A DNA stretch of 64,000 bases from Candidatus Limnocylindrales bacterium (lineage in GTDB: Bacteria > Desulfobacterota > Binatia > UBA1149 > CAITLU01): the NCBI GenBank assembly GCA_035571835.1, contig DATNBU010000039.1:372001-436000 (forward strand), read 5' to 3'. The notes beneath the pieces are model-generated. The model saw only the letters and a list, made by a program, of their open reading frames with translations, was not told the DNA's origin and did no database searches. This document shows, piece after piece, positions 1,563-46,775 of the stretch. The position numbers were made by a program, and so were the translations under genes. Numbering within the stretch: position 1 is the first letter of the stretch; each line of letters opens with the position of its first letter.

Positions 1563-3290
1563 ATGGAACGCGAACCTGTGAAAGCCATCGAGCGCCGCTC
1601 GATGGCGCTGCTCCGCGCAGCGCTGCCGGCAGTTCGTGTGGCGCGGACTGCATTGCTCGTCGTGCTGCTCGCCGTCGCGATGACTCCTGACGTGATTGCG
1701 GAAGAAGCTCCCGCCGAAGGCATCGTCCCGCCGCCGGCCGGTACCGACATCGAAACGCTCCGCAAGCTGCTCGGCCTTCCCGCGCAGCCCGAGACGCACC
1801 ATACGCCGCCGGCTGCACCTGCTCCGGCGCCCGAAGCACAGGCGCCGCCGCCGGTTCCCGAGCCGCAGGCCGAAGCGCCTGCCGCGCAGCCCGAAGTCAA
1901 AACGCCCGAGCGCGGCAAGCCGTACGTCAAGCCGAAGGCGGTCGCGAAGCCGGTCATCAGGCGCGCGCCGCGGCCGGTCGTAACAGCCGAACCGCAGGCC
2001 CCTTCCCCCGAGCCTCCGAAGGCCGAGCCTGCGCCCGCGGCATCAAAGCAGGAGGCGAAGCAGGAAGAAGTGGTCATGGGTTCGCCGCAGGACATTCCTG
2101 CTGCAGGCACCGTCGTCGACAGCTCGAACCAGGAACGATGGAAGCATCTGCTCGGCCCGTCGATCCAGTGGGCGGTTTCGCGCGGCGCGACGCTTCCCGT
2201 CGTCGACGCGATTCCGACACCGATGGAATCGTTCCGCGAGGCAGCGACGAAGCAGTACAGCCCGCAGGTCGAGCTGTCGCCCGACGGCAACTCGATGCGC
2301 AACTTCGTCGCCGGAATTCCGTTCCCGCTCGTGACCGACGACGATCCGAACGTCGCGATCAAGATGATGTTCAACTTCGAGAACCGCATTGCGGTCGACG
2401 ACATCGCGCTGCGCCACCTGTCGTGCGACACCGGCCGCATTCCGCCGGGCAAGGGAATCGAAGTCGAACGGCATTACGAGGTCGATTCATTCCGCCGCAT
2501 CTTTTACACGGGTCGCTTTCACGTCGACCCGAAGCCGACGTGGGCAACGCCCGAAGGCATTCGCTATCGCGAGATGCTCGGCGCGCTCGACGAGCCGTTC
2601 GACCTGAAAGGCGCGGGCTTCTCGTACATCCGCTATATCGATGCCCGCAGGCCCGACGACTCCTGGCTGTACTTCCCGCAGCTCAAGCGCGTGCGACGCC
2701 TGAGCAGCGCGCAGCGTTCCGAGGGCGTCTTCGGACAGGACGTCGATCTCGACAGCTATGCCGGCTACGCGGGAAATCCCGCGTGGAGCCACTGGAAGTA
2801 TCTCGGCAAGAAGACCGTGCTCGGCGTGCTCCATTCGAAGCATTTTCCGGCCAGGTTCCAGGATGCGCCCGCGGACTTCTTCCCCGACGACCGCTGGGAG
2901 CCGCGCGAGGTGTACATCCTGCTCGCCGTCTCCAAGCTCGGCGGCTACAACTTCGGCCAGCGCGTGCTCTACCTCGACCGCGAAAGCCTGCTGATCCCGT
3001 ACACCGAGATCTACGACCTCAAGGGCTCGCTGTGGAAGAGCCTCATCCAGACGTGGAGCTTCGGCAGGTCGCCGATCATCAATTCGAAAAAGCAGACGTA
3101 CGACTACGAGCAGTTCTACATTCCATCGCTGTCGATGGTCGACATCCAGCAGAACCACGTGACGCGCTGCTACCTGCCGAGCGACAAATCCCCCAAGGAC
3201 GAAGAAGGCTGGTACTGGAACCGGGGATCGGAAGAAGGAACGACCGAGCAGGTCTTCTCGGTTTCCCACTTCATCGAAGCAGGGCACTGA
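1563..3290 (+). CDS. DUF1329 family outer-membrane-associated protein
   Basis: The last ~350 residues match the DUF1329 family (LolA/LppX-like fold), with the family features 'FSYIRYIDARRPDDSWLYFP', 'KRVRRLSSAQRS' and 'VYILLAVSK'. The start at 1563 is the ATG nearest a GAGGGG site; it gives 575 residues with a hydrophobic export segment at about 28-50. In-frame starts upstream (GTG 1554, and ATG 1329) or downstream (ATG 1602) are possible. Residues about 55-180 form an unusual linker rich in Pro, Ala, Glu and Lys. DUF1329 proteins often sit beside RND/MMPL exporters and are thought to act in lipid or sterol-like substrate handling in the envelope; no such exporter is in this window. The stop codon is 13 bp from the end of the convergent PPOX gene. 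Confidence 0.85.
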   Translation: MEREPVKAIERRSMALLRAALPAVRVARTALLVVLLAVAMTPDVIAEEAPAEGIVPPPAGTDIETLRKLLGLPAQPETHHTPPAAPAPAPEAQAPPPVPEPQAEAPAAQPEVKTPERGKPYVKPKAVAKPVIRRAPRPVVTAEPQAPSPEPPKAEPAPAASKQEAKQEEVVMGSPQDIPAAGTVVDSSNQERWKHLLGPSIQWAVSRGATLPVVDAIPTPMESFREAATKQYSPQVELSPDGNSMRNFVAGIPFPLVTDDDPNVAIKMMFNFENRIAVDDIALRHLSCDTGRIPPGKGIEVERHYEVDSFRRIFYTGRFHVDPKPTWATPEGIRYREMLGALDEPFDLKGAGFSYIRYIDARRPDDSWLYFPQLKRVRRLSSAQRSEGVFGQDVDLDSYAGYAGNPAWSHWKYLGKKTVLGVLHSKHFPARFQDAPADFFPDDRWEPREVYILLAVSKLGGYNFGQRVLYLDRESLLIPYTEIYDLKGSLWKSLIQTWSFGRSPIINSKKQTYDYEQFYIPSLSMVDIQQNHVTRCYLPSDKSPKDEEGWYWNRGSEEGTTEQVFSVSHFIEAGH

Positions 3291-3303
3291 ACGCGCCGGA
3301 TCT

Positions 3304-3741
3304 TCAGTCGGCGCTGCCCTGCCAGGAGACGAGCCGGTCGATCCGCAGGCGGATCATCGGATGCGTCGCGAAGGCGAGCGTCATCCTGCGGTACTGCGGG
3401 TATTTGCTCCGCAGCGCTTCGAGTGCCGCGAGGAACTCGCGCTCGTCGGTGACGACGTGCGCATCGCACTCGGCCATCACGAACCACAGCGCTTTCCATT
3501 CTTCTTCGTAGTGATCGACGAGCAGCGTCGCGCGCGGATTGGCCTCGATGTTGCGAAGCCGGCGCAGGTTCGTGCGCGTGCGTTTGGGTTTCTCGTCGAT
3601 GACCGAGTACGCGGCGCCGCTGACGACGGCGAAACACAGCGGGACCACGTGCGGCCGGCCGTCGCTCGACGCAGTGGCGAGATGACCGACGCGTGCGCCG
3701 GCAAGGCGCTGCAGGGCGTCGGTATCGCCGGCGCCGATCAT
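3304..3741 (-). CDS. PPOX-class flavin/F420-dependent protein (TIGR03668-like)
   Basis: A 145-residue split-barrel protein of the pyridoxamine 5'-phosphate oxidase class. Seen motifs are 'RVGHLATASSDGRPHVVPLC', a central 'KRTRTNLRRLRNIEANPRATLLVDHY' region (read in parts, giving the KxxRNI..NPRATLLV signature) and a C-terminal 'RLRIDRLVSWQGS'. These fit the TIGR03668 group often described as F420-dependent. Its ATG overlaps the stop of the upstream hydrolase gene (ATGA at 3738-3741), so the two genes are translationally coupled. The substrate cannot be told from sequence, and F420 versus FMN use is not decided. Confidence 0.85.
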   Translation of the reverse strand: MIGAGDTDALQRLAGARVGHLATASSDGRPHVVPLCFAVVSGAAYSVIDEKPKRTRTNLRRLRNIEANPRATLLVDHYEEEWKALWFVMAECDAHVVTDEREFLAALEALRSKYPQYRRMTLAFATHPMIRLRIDRLVSWQGSAD

Positions 3742-4625
3742 GTCTGCGCCGCGAGCACCGTGCGCGAGAGGAAGTCGATCACGGCTTCGCAGAACACGTC
3801 GTTGCGGTCGCCCGCCACCATGTGCGACGCGTCTTCGACGTCCACGTATTCCGCATGCGGAACCATCTCGAGGAAATCGCGCACGCCTTCCTCGCTGACG
3901 ATCTCGCTCATGCGACCGCGCACGAGCAGGGTCGGAACCGACAGCGAACGGACGGCGGCGTTCATGCGCTCGGGGTAGTCGTGGTGCTTGCTGCGCGGCG
4001 AGTCCGACAGAAAGCGCGGATCCCAGTGCCAGCGCCAGCGGCCGTCGTCGCCGAGGCGGAGGTTCTTGGCGAGCCCGCTCGTGTCGGCCGGTCGCGGACG
4101 GTGCGGAAGGTACTCGGCAATCGCATCAGCAGCGTGCTCGATGGCCTCGAACCCTTCGGGAAAAGCGTTCATGAAGCCGACGATTTTCTGGACGCCGACC
4201 GGATCCATCTTCGGCGTGATGTCGACCAGCACCACCGCCGACGCCACCGGATGCGCGTGCTCGCAGATGATGCTCGCGATCCCGCCGAGCGACGCGCCGA
4301 CGAGCGCGGGTTTCGACGGAAAACGCATGGCGACCTCGTAGACATCGGCCGCGAACGTTGCGATCTCGTAATCCCCGTCGGCCGCCCATTCGCTTTCGCC
4401 GTGCCCGCGCAGGTCGAGCGTCACCGCATGAAATCCGGCCGCCGCGAGCTTGCCCGCGGTTGCGCCCCACGCGTGCCGCGTCTGGCCGCCGCCGTGCAGC
4501 AGAAGAACCGGCGGCCGGTCGGGCTCACCGTACGCGTCGGCCGCGAGCACAATTCCGCCGGCGCCCGTCAGCTCGAGGCGGCGTGATGGCGGCAGTGAAG
4601 TTCGCGATGGGGGTCGAGGTTCCAA
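3738..4625 (-). CDS. alpha/beta-fold hydrolase
   Basis: 295 residues with the full alpha/beta hydrolase layout: oxyanion motif 'LLLHGGGQTRHAW' near residue 42, nucleophile elbow 'VGASLGG' with Ser112, a cap region around 150-215, and a terminal 'VEDASHMV' histidine. The family splits C-O, C-N or C-C bonds in small molecules; the ring-cleavage-type HGGGQ start is common in peroxidase- and esterase-like members. It is the first gene of a coupled pair with the PPOX protein. The N-terminal ~15 residues are Pro/Ser/Arg-rich, so a slightly later start is possible. Confidence 0.87.
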   Translation of the reverse strand: MEPRPPSRTSLPPSRRLELTGAGGIVLAADAYGEPDRPPVLLLHGGGQTRHAWGATAGKLAAAGFHAVTLDLRGHGESEWAADGDYEIATFAADVYEVAMRFPSKPALVGASLGGIASIICEHAHPVASAVVLVDITPKMDPVGVQKIVGFMNAFPEGFEAIEHAADAIAEYLPHRPRPADTSGLAKNLRLGDDGRWRWHWDPRFLSDSPRSKHHDYPERMNAAVRSLSVPTLLVRGRMSEIVSEEGVRDFLEMVPHAEYVDVEDASHMVAGDRNDVFCEAVIDFLSRTVLAAQT

Positions 4626-42456: not shown

Positions 42457-43707
42457 CTACGCCGCAGCCACTTCGGCGCGCGTATCGGGTGCTTCCAGCC
42501 AGCGCATGCGCGCGCTTCCGACAAAGATGCGGCTCATCATTGCGAAGCGACGCGTGACCGGCTGCTGCAGGTACGGAACGCCGAAGCGCTCACAGATCTC
42601 GATGACCCTCGGCTGCACGCGCCGGTACGCGAGCATCGGCATGTCCGGAAACAGATGATGCTCGATCTGGTAGTTCAGCCACAGGTGCGCGTAGTCGCAG
42701 ACGTCGCCGCCGGTCCGGTAGTTGACCGACCCGACCACCTGCCGCACGTAGAACTCGCCTCGCGATTCGGGGCTCCCCTCGAAACGATAGACGTCTTCTC
42801 CGCTGTGATTCGGACCGACCACGAAGAACGTGTGGATGTTGGTCAGCACGTCGGCCATCAGCGAGTTGCACAGCGCCGAGAACGCCGCCCACGCTCCGAG
42901 CGGCGCGAACAGAAGCGGCAGCGCGACGAAACTGAGAAGCGCGTACGGTGCGTAGCAGGCGAGCAGCAGCGCGCGGACCGGCGTCGGACGCGGGGCGTTT
43001 TCCGGCGCACGCCGGTGCCACCACGCGGTCAGCGTCTTCGGCGCGTAGTACGACGCGCGCCAGGTCGCGGCCAGCAGCGCAAGCAGGCCGTAGCGCGCGG
43101 CCACCGGCAGACGCGACCCGTGGATGTCGGCAACGTTGTGCTCGATCAGGTCCGGATCGCGCAGCTCGCCGGTGTGCTGGTGGTGCAGGATGTTGTGCTC
43201 GTAGATCCACGCTTCGGGCAGCATCCAGTCGGCCCAGTCGACCAGGCGCCGGCGGCCGCGCGCGAAGACACGCGACGTGTAGCGCGCCGGGGCCCCGGGG
43301 ACTCTGTCGTAACCGCGATGACCGATGTGATGCATCAGCAGCCAGCGCGTCGAGCGACCGAGCGAAAGCGCTGCTGCGCTCAGCGGATTCGGTGCGATCC
43401 ACGCCGTCGCGAGCCCGACGGCTGTCGCAATGCGACCCCATCGTTCGATGCGACGCAGGTGACGCAGGTCGTCATCGCCGAGCGTTGCGCGCAATTCGGC
43501 GCGCAGCTCGCCGATCGCCTGCGCGAAGCCTTCGAGGTCAATATGATCGAGGGTGTCGAGATTCGGATTCGCAGCTGTCACGGAACGCGCGTGTGTATGC
43601 GATGGAGCGTCACGAGAAAAGCGAAATCGTTCGTAACTCTTCTCTGCGCGATAAGTTGATTTCCTGATTCGACGAACAACGAAGCGTGACACGCATCGGT
43701 CATTCAC
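42457..43707 (-). CDS. Fatty acid desaturase
   Basis: 416 residues with three histidine boxes of membrane desaturases: HHIGH at 126-130, HNILHHQH at 171-178 and QIEHHLFP near 346. The QxxHH third box is typical of front-end and some acyl-lipid desaturases. Four to six membrane segments surround them. The ATG at 43707 has GGAG/GGTGA upstream; a GTG at 43581 would give 374 residues and remove a basic head, so the start is not settled. An iron-dependent oxygenase of membrane lipids is inferred; no cytochrome b5 domain is present. Confidence 0.88.
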   Translation of the reverse strand: MNDRCVSRFVVRRIRKSTYRAEKSYERFRFSRDAPSHTHARSVTAANPNLDTLDHIDLEGFAQAIGELRAELRATLGDDDLRHLRRIERWGRIATAVGLATAWIAPNPLSAAALSLGRSTRWLLMHHIGHRGYDRVPGAPARYTSRVFARGRRRLVDWADWMLPEAWIYEHNILHHQHTGELRDPDLIEHNVADIHGSRLPVAARYGLLALLAATWRASYYAPKTLTAWWHRRAPENAPRPTPVRALLLACYAPYALLSFVALPLLFAPLGAWAAFSALCNSLMADVLTNIHTFFVVGPNHSGEDVYRFEGSPESRGEFYVRQVVGSVNYRTGGDVCDYAHLWLNYQIEHHLFPDMPMLAYRRVQPRVIEICERFGVPYLQQPVTRRFAMMSRIFVGSARMRWLEAPDTRAEVAAA

Positions 43708-43808
43708 CGAGACACTCCCGGACAGTCGCGCTTCTGCAATACGACCGAGCTCGTGCCGTTCCCGCGTTCATGCGTTCCTGCGCGTTTCGAAGCGGAATCG
43801 GGAAGGAA

Positions 43809-43848
43809 GTCGGGAACGAAGTCGGACTGATCCGTTTCGTGTCCCGAC
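43809..43848 (-). terminator. Hairpin after the B12-controlled operon
   Basis: GTCGGGA-A-CGAA (43809-43820) pairs with TTCG-TG-TCCCGAC (43836-43848), an 11-pair stem with one internal mismatch, only 3 bp beyond the TAA stop of the second operon gene. No T tract, so the call is moderate. Confidence 0.5.
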
Positions 43849-43851
43849 TTG

Positions 43852-44796
43852 TTACCGCAGATCGAGATCGACTGTCACACGCAGATGATCTTCATCGACG
43901 TGCACGATCTCGGCGGCGCTTCCGACATCGGCGACTTCGCTCCGGACGTCGTAGTCGCGCCCGGGCGTGAGGCGGCAGACCCGGTAGCGGCCGTTGGTGC
44001 GCGTCACGCGGCGCCGCGACCTTTCGCCTTCGGCTTCCACGTGCACGCGCGCCCCGGCCACCGCGACTCCGTCCGCCGTGACGCGGCCGGCGATGCACCC
44101 GAGACCGATCCAGTGGATCGCCGCGACAGCATCGAGGTCGAATCCGCCTTTGGTGCCGGCGAAGCTGTGATTGCCGGGATCATCGATCAGGTCGCCGGCG
44201 TCGGTGATGCGCACGAAGCGCGCGAATTCGAGCCCGACGTCGGCAAGATCGAAGCGATCGCCGCCCGACTCGGGCGCCAGCGGGTCGAGGCCGTTCTCAC
44301 TGTTCGCAAGGACCGGCGTCCGGCCTGCCAGCCCGGCGTGCGTGTCGGGATCGTAAGGGAATGCGAACCACTGCCGTGCGTCGGCGCTGACCTCCACGAA
44401 CGCGAGCTCGGCAAAGAGCAGGTCTCCGCCGAAGAACGCGTTCTCGAAGATCACGAGATCGTCGCCTTCGCCGTCGACGACCACGTTGTCGGCGAACGCA
44501 ACGGTGATGCTTCCGCCGTTACCGAGCGAAACCACGTCGAGCGACCCCTTCAGCATGCCGCCGCCTTCCGGCGGACCGAGCACGATGCCCGGCAGCTGGT
44601 CGGCTCCGAAACCGGACGACGTACCCGGCTCGAACACGCGAACGCGGTCGAGCCAGGCATCGCCGAGCCGGTCGGCGGCAAGAGAAGGCGCGGGCGCCGC
44701 GATGCACGCGAAGTACGCCGTGCTCGCGATCCATGCGATGCGCGCAACCGGAACGAACGCCGCGCGGCATATCGCGGCAACCCGCGCACCCATCAT
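43852..44796 (-). CDS. Exported surface protein with C-terminal carboxypeptidase-regulatory-like domain
   Basis: 314 residues, signal peptide to about 40. The main domain (~45-235) has 'DVVSLGNGGSITVAFADNVV', 'GDDLVIFENAFFGGDLLFAE', 'LAFVEVSADARQWFAFPYDP' and 'FVRITDAGDLIDDPG', and a 'GGFDLDAVAAIH' end. This is the pattern of a widespread 'cell surface protein' family with a discoidin-like beta-sandwich. The last ~70 residues match a carboxypeptidase-regulatory/SdrB-like fold ('CIAGRVTADGVAVAGARVHV'). Its ATG shares a base with the upstream stop (TGATG at 44798-44794), so it is translated with the propeller protein and falls under the same cobalamin riboswitch. Confidence 0.85.
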   Translation of the reverse strand: MMGARVAAICRAAFVPVARIAWIASTAYFACIAAPAPSLAADRLGDAWLDRVRVFEPGTSSGFGADQLPGIVLGPPEGGGMLKGSLDVVSLGNGGSITVAFADNVVVDGEGDDLVIFENAFFGGDLLFAELAFVEVSADARQWFAFPYDPDTHAGLAGRTPVLANSENGLDPLAPESGGDRFDLADVGLEFARFVRITDAGDLIDDPGNHSFAGTKGGFDLDAVAAIHWIGLGCIAGRVTADGVAVAGARVHVEAEGERSRRRVTRTNGRYRVCRLTPGRDYDVRSEVADVGSAAEIVHVDEDHLRVTVDLDLR

Positions 44797-46256
44797 CAGT
44801 GGCCGCTCATCGCCGGGCCGGATGTCGCCGGAGGCTCGCACACGAGCCGAATGCCGTCCGTATCCCGAACGGAGCTCGCACTGTCGGTCGTCGTGCGGAA
44901 TCGGATGTTCGCCCTGCCCCTCTGCGGCTTGCCGTTGCTGGCGATGCGAAGCGGTACGCGCACGCCGTCTCCGAGGACGCACGCGCTGTCCGACGTCGGC
45001 AGCAGCGCCGACGCATCTGCGACGAGATCGTCGAGCCCGGTGCTTTCGAGCCTCGTGCGAACTTCGATGCTCGCGATCGGCGACGGCGGCGCGCAGTCGC
45101 CGGTCCGTGCATCGCCGACGTTCAGGCACAGGCCGAGCGGGAACGTGCAGGTGCCGTCCGCCACGCCGTCCGCATCGCACGCGTCGCCGTCGGTGCAGTA
45201 CGCCGAGCGCGTCGGCGTTCCATCGTCCGAGATCGCGACCTCGACGCCGTACAGCTCGAGCATGCAGTCGGTCTCCGTGCTGCCGCCACCGAGAACCAGA
45301 CGGTCGATCGGGATCAGCCGGTGCACGCTCTTGTCGTCGTCGGCGCCGGAGAACGACGACGCGAGGAAATCGATCCGGCCGGTGAACGCATTGACGGAAA
45401 CGCCGCCGCCGAACGCATCGAATCCGGTGCCGCCGTCGACACCGGTGACGAGCGGCGTGACCGTGCCGCCGGGTGCGACCGCGGCAATGGTCGGGCTGCC
45501 GGTCGCGAGCACGGCGCCGTCGGTTGTCACCGCGATATCGATCGAGCCATGGTCGTAGGTCGGTCCCGATAGTGTGCTCTGGCGCACGCCGGCATCGGAG
45601 TACGAATAGATCGCACTCGCGAACGAACCGGTGGCTTCGCTGATCAGCACATCGGAATCCCGCACGACGAGCCCGCCGGTGTAGTCGAACCCGGTAGCGA
45701 ACGTCGTCGCCACCGGCGTCTGTTCCGACAGGTCGATGTGAATGACGGTGCCGGCGCCGCTGCCGTTGGCATCGGAGACGAGCAGGCCGCCTGCGAACAG
45801 ATCGATGCTGAACGCATTGGCAATGGTGCCGCTCGGCAGGACCTCGAGGCCATCAACCGGGACACTCGTCGAGTCGCCGGGAATCGCGAACACGGTATCG
45901 CCGGTCGTTGCGCCGCTGAAGTTGAAGCCGCTGTCCGTCACGTAGAGCACGTCCGACGCCGCGTCATAGACGCAGTCGGCGATCGAGTTGAGCCCGGTCG
46001 CCACCGTTCGCACGTCTCCGCGGTTCGACACGAACAGGATGCTGCGCGTGCGGCCGCTCGGCGTCGGAAACGAAAGCGCCGGTCCTACGCCGACAAAGTC
46101 GCCGCCCTTCGCGTGGGCAACGCAGCCTTCGGTCAGCTCCGCAAGCGTCTGCCTCGCATAGAGATAGCCGTCGGCCGGCTGCACGGCAGCCGATCCAACA
46201 GATGCAGAAAAATGGATGGAAATCGCGACCGCAGTCGCGACAGAAACACTACGCAT
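44796..46256 (-). CDS. Exported beta-propeller-like surface protein under cobalamin riboswitch control
   Basis: 486 residues from the ATG at 46256, with AAGGAG 8 bases upstream and a signal peptide to ~24. Repeats such as 'FVSNRGDVRTVATGLNSIAD', 'DAASDVLYVTDSGFNFSGA', 'IDLFAGGLLVSDANGSGAG' and 'SIDIAVTTDGAVLATGSPTI' suggest a six- or seven-bladed propeller (~30-330). A Cys-bearing region ('CTDGDACDADGVADGTC') and a beta domain follow. The cobalamin riboswitch at 46403-46603 lies in its 5' leader. In Bacteroides the surface propeller BtuG captures B12 for the TonB receptor BtuB; a similar role here is an inference only, since sequence similarity to BtuG was not tested. Confidence 0.85.
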   Translation of the reverse strand: MRSVSVATAVAISIHFSASVGSAAVQPADGYLYARQTLAELTEGCVAHAKGGDFVGVGPALSFPTPSGRTRSILFVSNRGDVRTVATGLNSIADCVYDAASDVLYVTDSGFNFSGATTGDTVFAIPGDSTSVPVDGLEVLPSGTIANAFSIDLFAGGLLVSDANGSGAGTVIHIDLSEQTPVATTFATGFDYTGGLVVRDSDVLISEATGSFASAIYSYSDAGVRQSTLSGPTYDHGSIDIAVTTDGAVLATGSPTIAAVAPGGTVTPLVTGVDGGTGFDAFGGGVSVNAFTGRIDFLASSFSGADDDKSVHRLIPIDRLVLGGGSTETDCMLELYGVEVAISDDGTPTRSAYCTDGDACDADGVADGTCTFPLGLCLNVGDARTGDCAPPSPIASIEVRTRLESTGLDDLVADASALLPTSDSACVLGDGVRVPLRIASNGKPQRGRANIRFRTTTDSASSVRDTDGIRLVCEPPATSGPAMSGH

Positions 46257-46402
46257 GCTGGTTCTCCTTCCGGCCCGCGCCGGGGTTTGCTCGAAGAACC
46301 ATCCGCAAAAAGGAAGAGGGAATCGGGGCCGGAAGCCGCAGCGATCGATCGCCACGACTCGAATCCCGGTCGCTCCTTCCCCGTCGGAAGGTTCAACCAA
46401 AA

Positions 46403-46603
46403 GCGAGCCGCGTCGATATCCTGACTTTGGGATCGTCCGAGCCGTCGCGCCTTCCCAGGTGCATTGGATGGACTGCTTTCGCAGCCCTGCGCCCAGTGGC
46501 TTAGTGCGACGTTCGTCCCCCTTCACAGTTGCGGGGCAGTCGAGGAGTTTCACCTCGTTCCCGACAGAGAGCGGAATTGCTCTCGATCGACTCGCGGCGC
46601 GAC
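46403..46603 (-). ncRNA. Cobalamin (B12/AdoCbl) riboswitch
   Basis: Read on the minus strand, all conserved blocks occur in order: GGGAACGAGGTGAAACTCC, then GACTGCCCCGCAACTGTGA, then AAGCCACTGG, a variable hairpin, CTGGGAAGGCGCGACGG, and the B12 box AGTCAGGATATCGACGCGG. The outer P1 stem pairs GCCGCGAGTCG (near 46597) with CGACGCGGC (near 46408). About 150 nt separate it from the AUG of the surface propeller gene; a CCGGC/GCCGG hairpin sits directly before the AAGGAG site and could be part of the switch. Family behaviour: B12 binding lowers expression. Confidence 0.93.
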
Positions 46604-46630
46604 CGTAGGAGCCAGAGCGCCACATGTCAA
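46602..46630 (-). promoter_or_regulatory. Promoter of the riboswitch-controlled operon
   Basis: TTGACA (46630-46625) and TACGGT (46607-46602) with a 17-bp spacer. The predicted start of transcription falls near 46595, exactly at the 5' strand of the riboswitch P1 stem, which supports both calls. Confidence 0.65.
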
Positions 46631-46677
46631 ACCTGCTCTACCGTTCGCGCTGGTCCTCTACCGCTTGCCGGGTCACT

Positions 46678-46705
46678 TTGAGTTCACCCTTGCGGCGGCT
46701 ATACG
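46678..46705 (+). promoter_or_regulatory. Possible promoter of the ThDP-enzyme gene
   Basis: TTGAGT (46678-46683) and TATACG (46700-46705) are 16 bp apart, about 70 bp upstream of the ATG at 46776. Confidence 0.35.
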
Positions 46706-46775
46706 AGCCTATCTCGCAGCAACCGTCCGGAAGCCGGCTGCCGACACCGAGAAACAAGCGAACGAGGACTTACGA

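Follow-up and report, generated by a model that had tools for sequence, protein, structure and literature searches.

What does a cobalamin riboswitch control when the two genes behind it encode exported proteins that belong neither to B12 synthesis nor to the TonB receptors? This question is raised by a gene pair, P0001 and P0002, on the minus strand of a 64,000-nucleotide stretch of contig DATNBU010000039.1 (the window, to which all coordinates without a locus handle refer) from a Candidatus Limnocylindrales bacterium placed in the class Binatia of the phylum Desulfobacterota. A preliminary description of this DNA had proposed a surface cobalamin-capture system made of a propeller protein comparable to BtuG and a beta-sandwich partner. 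We propose that the stretch is very probably a riboswitch-run cobamide-scavenging operon, in which a lineage other than Bacteroides has its own variant of the BtuG/BtuH system. The capture system finds support in the relationship of P0002 to BtuH and in the linkage of both genes to B12 riboswitches and uptake genes; the surface location of the two proteins and the binding of B12 by P0002 are what we infer from these.

The full riboswitch core announced on the minus strand was recovered by a covariance-model search as a strong match to RF00174, whose gathering score is 31.5 bits. The match (Table 1) covers the full model and is the sole one found in the genome (5.46 Mb, 98% complete). Cobalamin riboswitches are known as a class to repress upon cobalamin binding. 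Further downstream, the Shine-Dalgarno-like GGAAGGAG at 46271-46264, which precedes the ATG of P0001 at 46256, is enclosed by a hairpin in the predicted minimum-free-energy structure, and this hairpin is a candidate expression platform that may switch with the aptamer. The whole leader folds better than shuffled sequences (z -3.28), while the part downstream of the aptamer, at z -1.06, has no significance on its own. The consensus-type promoter of the preliminary description did not hold: the TTGACA at 46630-46625 is followed 17 nt further by TACGGT, which by eye matches TATAAT at only 3/6 positions, and a scan of 43600-46750 requiring at least 4/6 matches per hexamer found none, leaving a sigma-70 promoter unconfirmed. 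Judged by eye, a transcript started from these two hexamers would also lose part of the 5' side of riboswitch helix P1. A terminator scan returned 3 sites against 2.1 in shuffles, all of them within genes.

The two genes are coupled as previously described, since the TGA of P0001 (44798-44796) and the ATG of P0002 (44796) form a TGATG with an overlap of 1 nt. Both N-termini have, by eye, the look of cleavable signal peptides, in agreement with the export claimed for both products, and both are without a canonical lipobox. A Pfam scan of P0001 and P0002 gave no match to a B12 enzyme or to a TonB receptor (plug or beta-barrel), as had been stated.

Table 1. Features of the riboswitch-led gene pair, in window coordinates.
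Feature	Position	Strand	Basis
Cobalamin riboswitch aptamer (RF00174)	46396..46610	-	77.3 bits, E 2.6e-17, model 1-189
Predicted hairpin UGGUUCU/AGAACCA enclosing Shine-Dalgarno-like GGAAGGAG	46259..46301	-	Minimum-free-energy structure
Gene 1, P0001, 486 aa: signal peptide, six-bladed NHL-like propeller, C-terminal Cys-rich module	44796..46256	-	Open reading frame, model with predicted local distance difference test score (pLDDT) 89.8, fold matches, homologues behind riboswitches
Propeller part of P0001, residues about 26-319	45300..46181	-	Fold matches to NHL/SMP-30-like propellers, Z up to 26.5
Cys-rich module of P0001, residues about 317-486	44799..45308	-	Common to other proteins of the class
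Gene 2, P0002, 314 aa: signal peptide, BtuH-type domain, carboxypeptidase-regulatory-like domain	43852..44796	-	Open reading frame, model with mean pLDDT 88.3, fold and profile
BtuH-type domain of P0002, residues 43-228	44113..44670	-	7biz_A Z 14.5; 8blw_B Z 14.1
C-terminal CNA-B/carboxypeptidase-regulatory-like domain of P0002, residues 231-314	43855..44106	-	PF13620 and fold matches

The beta-sandwich partner is borne out by P0002, which carries a BtuH-type domain according to its predicted fold and to profile searches. A Foldseek search of 350,542 PDB chains with the model of P0002 placed 8blw_B (BtuG1 of Bacteroides thetaiotaomicron) at rank 3 (E 4.7e-06), many of the other high ranks being matches to the C-terminal CNA-B-like domain, as seen from the ranges given by VIA-align. 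When the top 1000 chains were realigned with VIA-align, the first rank went to 7biz_A (BtuH2; Z 14.5, root-mean-square deviation 2.5, 151 residues aligned, 19% identity) and the second to the H-domain of BtuG1 in 8blw_B (Z 14.1, deviation 2.8, 156 residues aligned, 24% identity), both spanning residues 42-228 of P0002; the next match confined to this part was PAPP-A, at Z 9.6. At the sequence level, P0002 alone found no match in the PDB. Its family profile A1 consists of 31 sequences out of 42 entries, 30 from the class and one from Sumerlaeota; the P0001 profile A2 likewise holds 31 sequences, out of 38, fragments and some very long entries having been omitted from both. A1 reached 8blw_B at a non-significant E of 0.18, with the unrelated 2hdw scoring almost equally. 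The wider profile A4 (28 sequences with P0002, drawn from part of the list of homologues in other classes and including seven from A1) matched 8blw_B at E 5.4e-14 and 7biz_A at E 2.4e-05. Because A1 alone gives no more than this, the sequence homology between P0002 and BtuH rests on the intermediates from other classes, which are themselves A1 matches (L163, E 2.6e-16; L165, E 3.4e-10); L163 searched alone matched 8blw_B at E 5.3e-19 and 7biz_A at E 1.2e-10.

Compared with BtuH of B. thetaiotaomicron (BtuH2, BT_1956, and the H-domain of BtuG1, BT_1490), P0002 thus shares the fold, the SLGxxGxI...N-A-F region and the profile matches; it is likewise under B12-riboswitch control, and its relatives are linked to BtuB-like genes. 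It differs in being shorter, mostly without the long insertion that bears corrin contacts, in having no canonical lipobox, and in carrying a C-terminal CNA-B/carboxypeptidase-regulatory-like domain (PF13620, E 7.9e-07 and 29.8 bits, under the cut-off of 32.3) where BtuH has N-terminal PKD domains. Two other families were compared. The BtuJ/DUF4465 proteins, of augmented jelly-roll fold, are also exported beta-sandwich B12 scavengers encoded near B12 transport genes, outside Bacteroidota too, according to PMC12751083 and PMC13398666; as the family of P0002 they were dropped, since a Pfam scan at E 1 gave no DUF4465 match in either protein and the fold matches of P0002 go to BtuH instead. To the LIC_13355 family lipoproteins (NCBIfam NF033170), residues 78-147 of P0002 match weakly (E 2.6e-06, 26.8 bits against a cut-off of 120).

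As regards P0001, the propeller fold stood, while membership of the BtuG family found no support. Residues 26-319 form a six-bladed propeller in the predicted model, and the best 50 fold matches, the families outside this list not being excluded by it, are NHL domains, SMP-30-/DFPase-like proteins, their designed relatives and a few others (Z 25.3-26.5), Escherichia coli YncE standing at rank 31 of the Foldseek list. Searched alone against the PDB, the P0001 sequence gave two weak matches, to enzyme IIA; its family profile A2 matched NHL-type chains, namely designed pizza propellers (best E 6e-18, a designed propeller), PknD and TRIM NHL domains, and up to E 10 no BtuG. BtuG was therefore rejected as the family of P0001. 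Whereas BtuG is a seven-bladed YncE-type propeller serving as the lid of BtuB, the predicted fold of P0001 is six-bladed and NHL-like, and the BtuG-like protein of this group of bacteria is a different one, called c2, encoded beside a BtuB-like receptor. The two nevertheless have in common that they are exported acidic propellers (isoelectric point (pI) about 4.1 for P0001) with a BtuH-type neighbour and a B12 riboswitch; in BtuG1 the G and H parts are fused, against separate P0001 and P0002. The H-domain of P0002 is acidic as well (pI about 4.1). BtuG2 is described as binding positively charged cofactors via a negatively charged face (PMC10404256), which the acidity of the P0001 propeller and the P0002 H-domain would resemble, as weak evidence.

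The linkage of the pair to B12 riboswitches was followed in 98 genomes of the class, including the present one, and in the 13 genomes of its order, with gene calls made by a simple codon-bias script that can miss genes or starts. Relatives of P0002 were found in 40/98 genomes, among them 13/13 of the order, and RF00174 in 91/98. Distances were taken from the RF00174 matches of the 40 positive genomes: in 32 of them, the present one included, a riboswitch lies on the same strand within 5 kb upstream of the P0002 relative, at 1.2-2.0 kb in 31 cases and at 3.9 kb in the remaining one (G044). For six of the eight exceptions (G004, G006, G010, G024, G051 and G066) the riboswitch could have been cut off, because the contig ends 0.6-1.7 kb from P0002; in G072 the end is 3.6 kb away, which excuses only an arrangement like that of G044. 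By comparison, of 61 TonB plug matches in the 13 order genomes, only the two in G009 and G011 have a riboswitch less than 5 kb upstream of them, and chance linkage is estimated at about 0.05-0.2% per gene, given 1-4 riboswitches per genome of about 4.5 Mb. P0001 matched 49/98 genomes at E 1e-8, and its propeller (matches starting before residue 200) 35/98, all of them among the 40 with P0002; the positive genomes without it are G006 (where the contig is cut), G030, G044, G067 and G072. In relatives, homologues of both genes lie behind B12 riboswitches and also neighbour genes of the BtuB-, BtuF- and BtuC-like kinds. Neither of the two outcomes named in the preliminary description as speaking against it, a missing RF00174 match or homologues never near B12 riboswitches or transporters, was observed.

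This genetic context is most explicit in several other families of the class, where the genes come in the order riboswitch, P0001, P0002, a TonB receptor (PF00593, PF07715), the 425-residue propeller c2, a BtuF-like binding protein (PF01497) and a BtuC-like permease (PF01032), as in L045. Clustering of neighbours over 39 regions, part of the window and the Sumerlaeota contig L002 found the receptor at 14 loci, c2 at 17, BtuF-like genes at 9 and BtuC-like genes at 10. The nine best PDB matches of the c2 family (E 0.0017-0.0087) comprise eight chains named surface-layer or YncE-family protein and, as the ninth, 3dsm, which is the BtuG2 structure (PMC6143338); since these are BtuG-type chains, c2 is considered the counterpart of BtuG. 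In L043 and L050 a c2-type protein occupies the slot of P0001, an exchange suggesting that either propeller can fill the same role. In the genome under study, the BtuB-like receptor and c2 adjoin at G000:C32 (L102), with no RF00174 near the receptor gene even at E 5, weak or degenerate forms included, and a BtuF-like gene (PF01497) adjoins a FecCD permease at G000:C22. FecCD was found in 13/13 genomes of the order, as were B12-binding domains (PF02310); CobS (PF02654), the only member of the synthesis pathway searched for, was found in none of the 13, against matches in 10/14 control genomes. Given that B12-binding domains are present and no CobS was found, members of the order appear to need finished cobamides from outside, and from its gene content the bacterium seems unable to make B12.

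A search of 395 genomes drawn from the phylum with A1 gave 28 positives, 8 of the class and 20 of other classes. All 20 of the latter have RF00174; taking the matches on the contigs of the A1 matches, a riboswitch lies upstream on the same strand within 5 kb in 13/20 and within 9 kb in 15/20. The 20 other-class regions that were read represent 19 of these genomes (G209 was left out); BtuB-, BtuF- or BtuC-like genes occur in 13 of them and none in 7. Five proteins are fusions of a BtuG-like propeller with a BtuH-like domain (L149:6062-8179, L150:8266-10071, L151:8892-11003, L163:5403-7505 and L165:6624-8780), with a PKD domain between the two parts in L163 and L165; the same BtuG-BtuH join is described for BtuG1 of B. 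thetaiotaomicron (PMC10404256). Outside the phylum, L002 carries a riboswitch (80.5 bits), a propeller-like protein and a P0002 relative in the same order, the propeller being weakly like P0001 (one blastp match in the P0001 family, E 5.5e-08).

It can be hypothesised that at low cellular cobalamin the riboswitch would permit expression of the P0001-P0002 messenger, a direction taken from the riboswitch class, and that at high cobalamin expression would be shut off. The likeliest way is that the Shine-Dalgarno of P0001 becomes hidden and that P0002, being translationally coupled, goes silent with it. Both products would be exported; the BtuH-type domain of P0002 would capture cobamides outside the cell, and the propeller of P0001 may work with it, whether as a lid, as a docking partner or by binding cobamides too. 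From this pair the cobamide would be handed over to the BtuB-like TonB receptor with its BtuG-like propeller and from there to the BtuF- and BtuC-like proteins; the genes for all of these lie at other places in the genome. As there is no canonical lipobox, P0001 and P0002 may either be released or stay attached through their additional domains.

Several observations weigh against such a scavenging operon. The polar B12 contacts described for BtuH2 are Tyr510, Trp577, Trp511, His476, Asn399 and Gln333, and those to the lower ligand Leu578 and Phe401 (PMC8941943); the numbering of that paper equals the 7biz index plus 100, with identities in agreement for Asn399, Gln333, Trp577, Leu578 and Phe401. 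Asn399 corresponds to N119 of P0002, present in 31/31 A1 sequences and kept in at least 90% of the wider A4, and Phe401 to F121 (30/31 in A1). These are the only contacts that map to conserved residues, and both could be structural; Gln333 and Trp577 are not conserved in the family, and the His476/Tyr510/Trp511 stretch sits in the long insertion mostly missing from P0002. With several contacts not kept and this insertion mostly missing, P0002 is, as read from the alignments, a domain of the BtuH type whose pocket is altered or reduced, and its binding of B12 is an expectation. P0001 shows no preference for BtuG in fold or profile. G007 is a true exception to the linkage, its riboswitch leading P0001 alone while P0002 lies on another contig, 58 kb from the contig end, and 5/20 other-class genomes have RF00174 on other contigs only. 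Moreover, B12 riboswitches are present in 52 of the 58 genomes (out of 98) that are without P0002, so that the class at large does not need P0002 to take up B12; in the examples read, riboswitches of such genomes mostly lead BtuB-like genes. The P0001-P0002 pair is thus an extra, absent from many members of the class. Finally, a simple regular expression found lipobox-like motifs in few homologues (5/38 for P0001, 3/42 for P0002), so attachment differs from that in Bacteroides.

These points leave room for other explanations. A ZnuA-like gene follows P0002 in G001, G002 and G006, which leaves a metal role possible, and it could be argued that the pair serves cobalt or another metal, as a surface capture device feeding a neighbouring ZnuABC-type transporter: in the window, too, P0002 is followed on its own strand by a ZnuA-like gene (42367-41393, past a desaturase), and such a gene lies directly after it in L033 and L034 (script-called), and near P0001 in G007. 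We regard this as very improbable, since the gene is on the opposite strand in L035 and L104, its place is taken in other families of the class by BtuB-, BtuF- and BtuC-like genes, the fold of P0002 is that of BtuH and, with no CobS found, cobalt alone should not yield B12. Equally, P0001 and P0002 might be structural or adhesive surface proteins made under B12 scarcity that bind no cobamide themselves, given that the Cys-rich module of P0001 is common to unrelated secreted proteins, that P0002 ends in a CNA-B-like domain as pilins and adhesins do, and that the corrin contacts of BtuH are poorly kept. The recurrence of the linkage to cobalamin uptake genes across the phylum, together with the existence of BtuG-BtuH fusions within the same homologous family, makes this improbable in our opinion.

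A further alternative accepts the role in uptake and divides the work differently: P0002 would be a degenerate binder whose H-domain docks on the BtuB/BtuG complex, and only P0001, or neither protein alone, would bind. In its favour, most of the B12-contact loop of BtuH is absent from P0002; against it, all 31 A1 sequences agree at 30 residues, one of which is the N of the ENAF motif, and we hold it to be rather unlikely. Within the scavenging operon that we favour, P0001 may perhaps be a new kind of cobamide binder, a six-bladed NHL-type propeller that stands where some relatives have a BtuG-like propeller in the operon and is paired with a secreted BtuH that is not lipid-anchored, a proposal which is advanced tentatively and which we would not presume. 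If it were true, free-living Gram-negative B12 auxotrophs would generally rely on BtuG/BtuH-assisted uptake, which would then not be an invention of gut Bacteroidetes.

BtuG has been described as exclusive to Bacteroidetes, on the basis of 313 gut genomes (PMC6143338), and BtuH as a protein of gut Bacteroidetes with three matches in Firmicutes (PMC8941943). B12-binding accessory proteins outside Bacteroidota are already known in the case of DUF4465, a family reported from several clades of bacteria, where TonB receptors and PF16819 propellers are frequent neighbours (PMC13398666). In full-text literature covering few subscription journals, no report of a BtuH-type protein with a six-bladed propeller, or of BtuH-type proteins spread over a phylum, was found among the matches listed, judged by titles and the openings of abstracts. 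In the present analysis, BtuH-type domains were repeatedly met downstream of B12 riboswitches outside Bacteroidetes, in one other phylum and on one Sumerlaeota contig, as were BtuG-like propellers next to a TonB receptor. The analysis thereby supplies proteins that can be tested, fusions of BtuG with BtuH, and a BtuH short enough to help define the minimal B12 pocket.

Some observations on the components may be added. The Cys-rich module of P0001 (about 316-478), for which no Pfam match was found, recurs in other secreted proteins of the class; among ten loci read, it lies within the first 275 residues of the frame in eight, is C-terminal in L175, and in L177 belongs to a P0001 homologue. At 45308-44799(-) it looks like a mobile surface module, placed mostly on the N-terminal side in unrelated secreted proteins. 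The L177 protein (L177:6435-5044(-), G022:C43) is a second P0001 homologue behind its own riboswitch, with no P0002 relative in the 10 kb read. The BtuH-like proteins of the other-class loci L153, L154, L158 and L164 end in what we take to be PEP-CTERM-like tails, so that anchoring may presumably differ between lineages, and the products of L002:1987-3132 and 3221-3994 share similar short tails (..RWTYYE, ..NWYLYE), possibly a sorting signal. In L110 and L111 (G013, G074), about 1 kb separates two RF00174 riboswitches of the same orientation, the second of which precedes a weakly BtuB-like gene, and such a riboswitch doublet occurs in G033, G040, G046, G053, G064, G069, G079, G084 and G089.

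Near the operon in the window, a metal transporter is encoded by ZnuA (42367-41393(-)), an ABC ATPase (39274-38504(-)) and an ABC-3 permease (38567-37710(-)), and a fatty acid desaturase (PF00487, 43707-42457(-)) lies between P0002 and ZnuA. G001 and G002 have the ZnuA-like gene directly after P0002; its script-called frame overlaps the end of the P0002 gene there (L033, L034), so that a metal transporter may fall under the B12 riboswitch in these two. A selenocysteine tRNA (RF01852, 68.5 bits) was found at L102:4922-5013, about 3 kb from the BtuB-like gene of the genome under study.

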